Source: Cocleimonas flava (GTDB taxonomy: Bacteria > Pseudomonadota > Gammaproteobacteria > Thiotrichales > Thiotrichaceae). From it: a stretch of 64,000 nucleotides of DNA. The stretch spans positions 620,001-684,000 of the forward strand of contig NZ_SMFQ01000003.1 of assembly GCF_004339015.1 (NCBI RefSeq), in the 5' to 3' direction. The position numbers were made by a program, and so were the translations under genes. Shown one piece after another: positions 36,659 through 40,469 of this stretch. How positions within the stretch are numbered: the stretch's first letter is position 1; each line of letters starts with the position of its first letter. The notes beneath the pieces were generated by a model. It searched no databases. It was given only the letters and a program-made list of their open reading frames with translations, and was not told the origin of the DNA.

Positions 36659-36937
36659 CTATCCTTTGGCTTTTTCCAAATACAAAGGGTGCGTCGCGAT
36701 GAAATGCTTTAACACTTCTTTAAGTTTAGCCGCTTGCTCATCATGGCCTTTACGTTTTGCTTCTTCGATATCATCTTTAATAATTCTTCGAAGCTTAGGA
36801 ATGCCGTCTTTCCCATGAATAATATAATCAGCAAGCTCAGAGGCGACCGCGTCTGGCACATGTTCGTGCATGGCAACCGCTGCAATTTCTTCCTCAGTAC
36901 AATCACACATACCGATAATATCTTGTAGATTTAGCAT
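36659..36937 (-). CDS. Conserved hypothetical protein, 92 aa
   Basis: A small soluble helical protein begins MLNLQDIIGMCDCTEEEIAAV and contains HEHVPDAVASELADYI and LKHFIATHPLYLEKA. The even spacing of acidic and hydrophobic residues and the complete absence of membrane segments suggest a helical bundle. I recall close relatives in other proteobacteria without an assigned function. GGGAGAG precedes the ATG. Cys11 and Cys13 form a C-x-C near the N-terminus that could bind metal. Confidence 0.7.
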   Translation of the reverse strand: MLNLQDIIGMCDCTEEEIAAVAMHEHVPDAVASELADYIIHGKDGIPKLRRIIKDDIEEAKRKGHDEQAAKLKEVLKHFIATHPLYLEKAKG

Positions 36938-37076
36938 CTTTAACTCTCCCTGGTTATTTCGTTTGCTTATGTATTTACTGAATCATTTATTCATAATAAT
37001 TAAACAAATCACCTAAATTACGTTCGCTAACATTTCTTCTCCTTATTAAACAATACTCCTTTCTACGGAGTGTTAT

Positions 37077-37772
37077 GTGAGAATTGAAAACAAACAACGA
37101 AAAATCAAAGTAACTATTGATACAGATCAATCAAATTTCCGAACACTAAACAATAAAGATGAACCTATACTCAGAATAGTAAAAATAAACCATGGCAATT
37201 CAATCAATGAAAACCACTCAATGAAAACAACACAATCCGCTGATCAAATTATCTATTTCTTGAAGCAATGCGCTGATGCAATAAAAATTCAGACGAATAA
37301 CCCAACCGTACTTAAAGGCGCTGAAATCTTTAGTCAGCGAATAAAATCCCCCACAGAAAAGCAGTTTAACCCTCATTTATTGCCCGTTATAGCTCAGATC
37401 GAACACCTATCATCGACACCTTTTACCTTTAACTTTCAGCAAATTGTCACAGACATGGTCTGGAGGCCCTCTCCCCGTACCGATGAAAAAGGGGAACAAA
37501 TGGCACTGGGTATTTTCAATGAAGTGTTAGATTTAGGTGATATCGTTGTTGGTTTATTAGTGGTGGATAAACATCAGAGTTATCCGCTGCACCAACATCG
37601 ACCACAGGAATTGTATCTGGTGTTATCAGGAACTGGCGATTGGCGATACGGTGGTTCAGAGGAATTCAACACCTTAGTACCGGGTGATGTGATATATAAC
37701 CACCCCAATGATCTGCATGGGGTAAACGCTTTAGATGAACCCATTTTGGCTTTATATGTATTATGGAAATAG
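37077..37772 (+). CDS. Cupin of the DMSP-lyase family (DddL/DddQ-like)
   Basis: The frame opens with GTG at 37077 after a GGAG site (231 aa). An internal ATG at 37221 would give 183 aa. The last 70 residues are the cupin: YPLHQHRPQELYLVLSG with His172, His174, Glu178 and Tyr180, then DVIYNHPNDLHGV with His214, ending LALYVLW. This arrangement matches the metal-binding residues of cupin DMSP lyases, which split dimethylsulfoniopropionate into dimethyl sulfide and acrylate. Not all relatives have that activity, and no acrylate-use genes are adjacent. An ATG directly before the GTG (37075) runs into TGA at once. Confidence 0.6.
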   Translation: MRIENKQRKIKVTIDTDQSNFRTLNNKDEPILRIVKINHGNSINENHSMKTTQSADQIIYFLKQCADAIKIQTNNPTVLKGAEIFSQRIKSPTEKQFNPHLLPVIAQIEHLSSTPFTFNFQQIVTDMVWRPSPRTDEKGEQMALGIFNEVLDLGDIVVGLLVVDKHQSYPLHQHRPQELYLVLSGTGDWRYGGSEEFNTLVPGDVIYNHPNDLHGVNALDEPILALYVLWK

Positions 37773-38011
37773 CCACAAGGTTTTAGCATTCAAACCTTGA
37801 AGATAAAGCACGTCGTTTCTTGCATTGTTTCTTGCATTGCTTGTTGTCATACGTCTTATTTGGACTCTACACATTTAACAATATGAACAGTGTGTTAGTT
37901 TGTGTTTGGGCTGTATTTCTCTTAGGGTCTTATTTGAAAATAAACATATAAACCTCACCATGCTTAATCAACAATAAATCAACATTTATACAATACAGGG
38001 AGTATTAAATA

Positions 38012-39373
38012 ATGAGCGCTAAGCAGCCAAAAGCTGACCTTGCCAAACCCATAGAAAAACAATTTGAAAAACTCACAGAACCGTTTAACCGGTTTGTAAA
38101 TAACCAGATTTCTGGGGCGCTCTTACTTATTCTAGCGACACTCTCCGCACTGATAGTGGTCAATAGCCCATGGCATGATTACTACTTCGCGCTGGAAAAC
38201 ATTGAATTTGGTGTCGTGTTTAACGACTACGAAATTCGAAAATCATTACACCACTGGGTCAATGACGGTTTGATGGTGTTATTTTTCTTCTTGCTGGGTT
38301 TGGAAATCAAACGAGAATTTCTGGCCGGTGAGCTACAATCTTTTACCCAATCAAGCACTGTTATTATGGCGGCATTGGGTGGCATGATTTTTCCCGCGTT
38401 AATTTTTGCGGCGTTTAATTATGACACTGAAAGTGCCGCGGGCTGGGGAATCCCGATGGCGACAGACGCGGCCTTTGCACTGGGTGCTTTGGTGTTGCTA
38501 GGGTCACGCATTCCTAGTGGCTTGAAGGTGTTTTTAGTCGCTCTAGCGATTGTTGATGATATAGGAGCAATCATTGTGATTGCGGTGTTCTATACCGATC
38601 AGCTTAATTTACAGATGCTAATGATCGCTGCGGGTTTGTTTGCTCTATTGCTGGTGATGAACCGCTTAGGGATACGCAAACCTTTGCCTTATTTGCTGAT
38701 CAGTATTCTACTGTGGTATGTAACCTTGCTATCTGGAGTACATGCAACGGTTGCTGGGGTACTCGCGGCATTTGCCATACCTGCACGTCCACGACGTCAT
38801 CCGCGTAACTTAGCGAAGAAACTACGAACCGCGGCTAAGCAAATGGATCAGATTGAAGAAAATCCTGAAACAGAGATGCTTGCCGAAGCCAGCAATCACA
38901 AAATTGTTGAAGACGTTGAAGAACGAGCCAAAGAAACGAAAACACCCCTAAGAAGCTGGGAAACAACCCTAGAAAGACCGGTAAGCTTGTTCGTGATTCC
39001 GATATTCGCATTTCTAAATGCGGGCATCGTTATTTCCTTAGATACCATCAATGCCATTATCCCTGCGACTATCAGCTGGGGCATTATTGCTGGCCTGGTA
39101 CTCGGTAAACCCATCGGCATCGTTTTAATGAGTTGGATTGTGTTAAAACTGAAATGGGGAGAATTACCCGAAAATGTAACACTTAAACACATTATTGGTG
39201 TCGGATTACTTGCCGGCATGGGCTTCACGATGTCGATTTTTATCGCGTCTCTGAGTTTCCCTGGTCACCCTGAAATGCTCACCCAAGCGAAACTGAGCAT
39301 AATGCTGGCGACGGCTTTAGCTGGCTTACTGGGCGTAATCTGGCTATGGGTTTTGTCATCCAGAGAAAAGTAG
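38012..39373 (+). CDS. nhaA: Na+/H+ antiporter NhaA
   Basis: The 453-aa protein has 11-12 helices. It shows the NhaA signatures GIPMATDAAFALGAL and VALAIVDDIGAIIVIA, with the paired Asp residues that exchange sodium for protons. A cytoplasmic loop of about 80 residues (roughly 263-340, RPRRHPRNLAKKLR to LRSWETTLERPV) is longer than in E. coli NhaA and highly charged. It suits a saline habitat. GGGAGT precedes the ATG. A typical terminator follows at 39421. Confidence 0.93.
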   Translation: MSAKQPKADLAKPIEKQFEKLTEPFNRFVNNQISGALLLILATLSALIVVNSPWHDYYFALENIEFGVVFNDYEIRKSLHHWVNDGLMVLFFFLLGLEIKREFLAGELQSFTQSSTVIMAALGGMIFPALIFAAFNYDTESAAGWGIPMATDAAFALGALVLLGSRIPSGLKVFLVALAIVDDIGAIIVIAVFYTDQLNLQMLMIAAGLFALLLVMNRLGIRKPLPYLLISILLWYVTLLSGVHATVAGVLAAFAIPARPRRHPRNLAKKLRTAAKQMDQIEENPETEMLAEASNHKIVEDVEERAKETKTPLRSWETTLERPVSLFVIPIFAFLNAGIVISLDTINAIIPATISWGIIAGLVLGKPIGIVLMSWIVLKLKWGELPENVTLKHIIGVGLLAGMGFTMSIFIASLSFPGHPEMLTQAKLSIMLATALAGLLGVIWLWVLSSREK

Positions 39374-39677: not shown

Positions 39678-40469
39678 TTAACCTTGATCACCCGCACGTA
39701 CCGCTCGTATTAACTCTTGCGGCAAATCAACAACGTCACAAGGGCCACGGAATTCTTCAGGTACATCACCCGGGCATTCACCACAGGCTTCATTACCCGG
39801 CACGGCGAAATCAATTTTGCGCGGATATGGTAAATCAAGATTATTCATAATAGCGACAAATTCATCCTGAGTTTTATTATTACCCAGACGTGGATTACGA
39901 TTCTTTTCCTGGCCGATGGTGGTTATCTGTCGTCCTTCATAATCATGCGCAGGATAAACAAGGGTCTCGTCTGGCAAAGTAAAAAACTTCTGCGTAATGC
40001 TTTCATATAATTTAACGGGGTCACCCGATTGGAAATCCGTTCTACCGCAGGCTTCAATTAACAAAGCATCACCGGTAAACACTACTTTCTGCATACCATT
40101 ATCTAATAAATAGGCGTGATGCTTTCCCGTGTGACCGGGTGTAAATAAGGGCTCTAATTTAATATTACCCACCATAAATGGTGTGCCTTCAGATACGCCT
40201 AAATCGGCACAGGGTAATTGCTCCATAGCGGGAACTACAATCTGACTGCCAGCAAATTCCTTTAATTTTTTCGCACCAGTAAGGTGGTCTGCATGAACAT
40301 GGGTTTCCAAAGTATAGGTTAGACCTAAACCCAGTTCTTTTAGGGCTAGTAGATCACGTTCCACAGTATCAATCACGGGATCTATTAATACCGATTGCCC
40401 CGTTTCTTCACAGGCGATTAGGTAGGTATAAGTACTAGAGTCTTTTTCATAAAGCTGTTTAAAAATCAT
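39678..40469 (-). CDS. Persulfide (sulfur) dioxygenase, ETHE1-like
   Basis: The 263-aa metallo-beta-lactamase-fold protein has THVHADHLTGAKKL, PGHTGKHHAYLL and FTGDALLIEACGRTDFQSG. The last combination with VYPAHDYEGR is the ETHE1 signature, distinct from glyoxalase II. It oxidises glutathione persulfide to sulfite with a mononuclear iron. The C-terminal extension with ACGECPGDVPEEFRGPC is unusual for ETHE1 and carries three Cys. No sulfide:quinone reductase or rhodanese gene is adjacent. GAGGTG precedes the ATG. Confidence 0.88.
   Translation of the reverse strand: MIFKQLYEKDSSTYTYLIACEETGQSVLIDPVIDTVERDLLALKELGLGLTYTLETHVHADHLTGAKKLKEFAGSQIVVPAMEQLPCADLGVSEGTPFMVGNIKLEPLFTPGHTGKHHAYLLDNGMQKVVFTGDALLIEACGRTDFQSGDPVKLYESITQKFFTLPDETLVYPAHDYEGRQITTIGQEKNRNPRLGNNKTQDEFVAIMNNLDLPYPRKIDFAVPGNEACGECPGDVPEEFRGPCDVVDLPQELIRAVRAGDQG

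Follow-up and report, generated by a model that had tools for sequence, protein, structure and literature searches.

A divergent cupin of the DMSP lyase family in Cocleimonas flava

Gene structure and start codon

The window, a 64,000-nucleotide stretch of the Cocleimonas flava genome, contains an open reading frame at 37077-37772 on the forward strand that would encode 231 amino acids from a GTG start. This frame is present as originally called, and its GTG does directly overlap an ATG-TGA at 37075-37080. A GGAG that would make a good Shine-Dalgarno sequence lies at 37067-37070 (+), 6 nt upstream of the GTG at 37077, which argues for translation from this codon. Against this, the unusual GTG start singled out in the initial annotation is probably not a start at all. 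The homolog in a sister Cocleimonas genome (G007, locus L007) is 74% identical outside the 5' leader, but it lacks the GGAG, has GCA at the GTG column, and carries several in-frame stops upstream of the cupin part.

Substitutions between these two loci are spread evenly over the 3 codon positions across residues 1-48 (0.33/0.29/0.33 per position), with no codon pattern, versus a marked third-position excess across residues 49-231 (0.15/0.13/0.43). The close homologs at L003 and L004 also start near residue 49. Because of the missing start and the stops in L007, the substitution pattern, and the homolog starts, the ATG at 37221 is probably the true start, giving a likely coding sequence of 183 amino acids at 37221-37772 (+) that encloses the Pfam match described below. 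On the same sequence comparison, purifying selection acts on this 183-residue frame. The 48 in-frame codons from the GTG (37077-37220, +) would then be an untranslated leader. Since codon usage in the leader is not clearly noncoding (0.096, where 47-codon pieces taken from window genes have a mean of 0.29 and a standard deviation of 0.15), and since the GGAG is well placed for the GTG, we infer this start rather than treat it as settled. The region at 36950-37220 is fairly conserved relative to L007, yet has no coding signal, and G007 has about 70 additional bases there. An Rfam search of 36900-38050 for an RNA element in the leader returned no match.

Family membership and active-site residues

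In Pfam the protein falls in DMSP_lyase (PF16867), whose cut-off of 27 bits it passes with 49.6 (E 4.7e-13). The match spans only residues 154-225 and positions 93-162 of the 162 in the profile. The generic Cupin_2 model scores 31.5 bits. An NCBIfam search of the protein gave no model above its cut-off. Comparison with hhalign of a profile built from the Cocleimonas branch (see below) against 15 other family members aligned columns 6-189 of 193 with a probability of 99.8% and an E-value of 9.9e-29, which extends the homology to the whole length, N-terminal part included. Against 4 DddL-group proteins, the profile-profile match was 95.9% (E 5.9e-9). The Pfam score and the full-length profile match together bear out the initial assignment to the DMSP lyase family. 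The match is not a chance one: PF16867 exceeds its cut-off in 9 of 369 Gammaproteobacteria genomes (this one counted) and has a match with an E-value of at most 0.001 in 26 of them; among 14 control genomes, 2 reach that E-value and none exceeds the cut-off.

The active-site pattern that had been read from the sequence, H-x-H-x3-E-x-Y followed by a later histidine, is present as HQHRPQELY (H172, H174, E178, and Y180) and H214, and the C-terminus does end in LALYVLWK. Residue numbers here refer to the 231-residue frame; Tyr180, for example, is Tyr132 in the 183-residue protein. Cupin motif 1 (37581-37616, +) contains Y169, H172, H174, E178, and Y180, corresponding to Y120, H123, H125, E129, and Y131 of DddQ, while the third metal-binding histidine, H214 (37716-37718, +), corresponds to H163. 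The C-terminal tryptophan, W230 (W182 in the shorter numbering; 37764-37766, +), aligns with the VLW of DddQ (PDB 5cu1). Tyr120, His123, His125, Glu129, Tyr131, and His163 are given as essential in DddQ by PMC4437653, and the assignment of a 3-His-1-Glu site with 2 motif-1 tyrosines follows that source and PMC5395565. All 6 are present in the window protein, with the spacing from first to fifth that DddQ has, and all are invariant in the 4 members of the Cocleimonas branch. By sequence, then, the protein belongs to the family over its full length, and it has both tyrosines of motif 1 along with a metal site of 3 His and 1 Glu.

The same 6 residues are kept in 37 of 43 aligned family rows, rhizobial proteins included (the plasmid proteins of Sinorhizobium L079, Rhizobium L081, and Methylobacterium L083). 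We therefore read the signature as a mark of the family and not of the substrate, and reject it as proof of DMSP lyase activity. DMSP lyases are easily over-called from the Pfam name or from H-x-H-x3-E-x-Y, since rhizobial proteins of unrelated context share these residues. At the positions of DddK Phe108 and Trp110, the window protein has Leu and Val, L003 has Met and Phe, and L004 has Phe and Phe; with aromatic residues in the latter 2 proteins, these positions point neither way for the branch.

Sequence (2.1e-5) and profile searches of the PDB both rank 5cu1 first, an entry titled DddQ of Ruegeria pomeroyi. An AlphaFold model built from 3 sequences was poor (pLDDT 51.1, pTM 0.57). We attach little importance to its top Foldseek match, a DddQ (7.9e-7), because many other cupins come close behind it (410 matches with an E-value of at most 0.001).

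Phylogenetic position

The window protein and its 3 relatives form a 4-row Cocleimonas branch with full support (100/100) and a long stem in both of the trees constructed. The first tree held 43 rows and the second 39, after 7 long-branch, partial, or poorly aligned rows were dropped (L070, the second gene of L081, L061, L067, L017, L053, and L012) and 3 DddQ chain pieces were added. Identity of the window protein to rows outside the branch ranges from 15.5 to 32.3%, the top value coming from only 96 columns. A segment that often reads GPxG is missing in all 4 branch members and filled in 37 of the 39 other rows; of the remaining 2, L067 lacks it and L017 has it shortened.

In the best tree, the branch lies beside a 10-row rhizobial-type group with a support of 93/78, which is not firm and is no proof of the placement. 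Grouping with the DddQ side was rejected (p-AU 2.53e-6, with DddQ rows that are chain pieces of 102-141 residues), while grouping with DddL was not (p-AU 0.193), although it is not the arrangement of the best tree. The groups tested were named only after inspection of the tree, and these p-AU values serve as a guide only.

The likeness to known enzymes is partial. DddQ (Ruegeria/Roseovarius type; PDB 5cu1, 4b29, and 4la2) shares with the window protein the HxHx3ExY spacing, the preceding tyrosine, the later histidine, and the VLW end, but it has the GPxG-bearing segment, and the DddQ-side rows (L014, L015, L045, L069, and L072) are 17-20% identical. DddL proteins belong to the same Pfam family and have the same 6 residues, with H-x-H-x4-E in all 4 rows versus the DddQ-like H-x-H-x3-E here; their identity to the window protein is 19-23% (19% for the DddL of the same genome). 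The initial wording, that the end and metal site closely resemble DddL/DddQ, is too strong for a protein with 17-23% identity to these 9 aligned rows. All aligned DddL rows fall under 40% identity, although the 40% threshold used in PMC6309047 was set against ratified DMSP lyases and not against these rows. DddK (PDB 6a53 and 5tfz) has the 3-His-1-Glu site with tyrosine and differs in its chains of 136-150 amino acids and at the Phe108/Trp110 positions.

The rhizobial-type group includes Sinorhizobium L079, Rhizobium L081, Methylobacterium L083, Paracoccus L082, marine Pseudosulfitobacter L080, and L009, and its rows L009 and L082 have the shortest paths to the branch of any outside it. Its 10 rows are 18-27% identical to the window protein, and 8 of them have a gap at the C-terminal tryptophan. 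In Rhizobium etli IE4771 the family cupin adjoins NADH:flavin oxidoreductase, ETF, and formaldehyde-oxidation genes. At this locus (L081:3914-7086, +), the cupin flanked by the oxidoreductase and ETF genes has an intact site; a second copy has FHQRFF as its site residues.

Searches with the branch profile covered 63 genomes of the order, 369 of the class, and 398 of the phylum, in overlapping sets. Close members appeared only in the 4 source Cocleimonas genomes, which scored at least 347 bits versus at most 68.2 bits elsewhere. One scan for viral relatives confirmed none. Within these sets the lineage is seen only in Cocleimonas. The family itself is a known one, to which the gene belongs as a divergent member.

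Genomic context and a second family member

Downstream of the cupin lies an ordinary nhaA (38012-39373, +; PF06965, 1.7e-141), in a gene order that is the same in L007. Two genes downstream of the cupin, at 39678-40469 (-), is a metallo-beta-lactamase-fold protein (PF00753) that we take to resemble a persulfide dioxygenase. Among the 25 open reading frames of at least 80 amino acids at 29-46 kb, judged by eye with Pfam run on 7 of them, no ddd, DMSP transport, or acrylate gene was recognized. Over this interval the gene stands apart from any recognizable ddd cluster, as first noted. Among Gammaproteobacteria, DddL is already reported from Marinobacter (PMC9327192). Neighboring genes are conserved in L007 and, by eye, different in L003 and L008. 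No partner gene emerges from this comparison, and we rejected the neighborhood as a route to function.

The same genome contains a second PF16867 gene, at C3:838294-838764 (-) (L039:9217-9882, -), which scores 132.8 bits over profile positions 2-161 versus about 49 bits for the window protein. A third match, on contig C1, has 24.4 bits and is below the cut-off. Aligned over 98%, the C3 protein shares 45.9% identity with an annotated DddL on CP049030, and it is placed with the DddL rows in the tree. It is a full-length DddL and seems to be the genuine DMSP lyase of C. flava; our analysis points to it as a much better candidate for that activity than the window gene. For comparison, PMC6309047 reports activity for another DddL, one that is 47% identical to the DddL of Sulfitobacter EE-36. 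By eye, the C3 gene lies between solute-binding-protein-like genes and a Fur/Zur-like regulator. In the open-licence papers retrieved on Cocleimonas or Thiotrichales with DMSP or dddL, no DMSP lyase is reported from this genus of bacteria, Cocleimonas.

A matching DddL gene is also found in G007 and G008. Of 12 Cocleimonas genomes, 3 have DddL and 4 (G000, G007, G008, and G011) have the window gene, which occurs in all 3 DddL-bearing genomes versus 1 of the 9 without DddL (Fisher p 0.018, a value that ignores relatedness, genome size, and incompleteness). Profile searches of the C. flava genome also recovered a YhdH/AcuI gene above its cut-off, one BCCT transporter, and PrpE-like synthetases that at 698.6 bits are below the strict cut-off of 827.4. 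The AcuI, BCCT, and best PrpE-like matches are on contigs other than that of the window. None of these genes is DMSP specific.

Possible function

We lean slightly toward a divergent, metal-dependent, lyase-like cupin of 183 amino acids and a single barrel, whose main substrate would more likely be something other than DMSP. The DMSP lyase cupin family is known to hold enzymes without an assigned function. A different small carboxylate seems the likelier substrate, given the DddL already in the genome, the distance of the branch from DddQ, and the presence of such unassigned enzymes in the family. By analogy with DddQ, DddW, and DddK, a divalent metal (Fe, Mn, Co, or Zn) held by the 3 histidines and the glutamate would bind the carboxylate of a small substrate. 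Tyr180 would then remove the alpha proton, the role proposed for Tyr131 of DddQ and Tyr64 of DddK, with beta-elimination of the leaving group. For those 3 enzymes, metal binding of the carboxylate, abstraction of the alpha proton by tyrosine, and beta-elimination are described in PMC10686828 and PMC4437653. The substrate may perhaps be another sulfonium or a quaternary-ammonium carboxylate.

Counting against a substrate other than DMSP, the DddL grouping was not rejected (p-AU 0.19), the known cupin DMSP lyases are very diverse in sequence, and co-presence with DddL in 3 of 3 Cocleimonas genomes could mean a shared role in DMSP metabolism. The main alternative, which we regard as possible but distinctly less probable, is that the cell has, next to DddL, a second and divergent lyase for DMSP or DMSOP. 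Such an enzyme would fit the retention of the 6 essential residues and the C-terminal tryptophan, the co-occurrence with DddL, and the BCCT, AcuI/YhdH, and PrpE-like genes, and the cloned cupin lyases DddY, DddL, DddQ, DddW, DddK, and DddU cleaved DMSOP as well, according to PMC10686828. These points are offset by a signature that does not discriminate (37 of 43 rows), the rejected DddQ grouping, the Leu/Val pair at the DddK Phe108/Trp110 positions (although L003 and L004 have Met/Phe and Phe/Phe), the lack of recognized DMSP genes at 29-46 kb, and a co-occurrence p value that takes no account of relatedness or genome size. A more specific proposal, about as probable as that alternative, is that the branch represents a Cocleimonas-specific class of lyase with a barrel remodelled by loss of the segment filled in 37 of the 39 other rows, which might cleave a non-DMSP sulfonium or betaine compound and complement DddL in the same marine bacterium.

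It is rather improbable that the cupin is no longer a lyase and serves as a sensor, an isomerase, a dioxygenase-like protein, or another enzyme on the same metal site. Profile matches to other cupins, among which chains named phosphomannose isomerase outrank DddK and a second DddQ, would suit this reading, as would the close run of other cupins in Foldseek (with a low-confidence model) and the loss of the GPxG-type segment, but DMSP_lyase outscores Cupin_2, and both motif-1 tyrosines are invariant within the branch. A chance open reading frame or pseudogene, to which the unconserved 5' extension might point, is highly implausible and is refuted for residues 49-231 by 3 intact homologs besides the window gene and the third-position excess.

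Other family cupins in Cocleimonas

Two further DMSP_lyase-family genes were seen in Cocleimonas genomes. The first, in G003 (L005:1111-1815, +; 76 bits), is a different cupin flanked, by eye, by an apparent AMP-dependent acyl-CoA ligase and an enoyl-CoA hydratase/3-hydroxyacyl-CoA dehydrogenase, and it has a close relative (L068) in a genome from a different class within the phylum. The second (L006:953-1615, -) brings the family genes of G008 to 3 in all; it lies by eye beside LysR-like genes, and its closest PDB match is 5cu1 at 1.5e-14, versus 2.1e-5 for the window protein.
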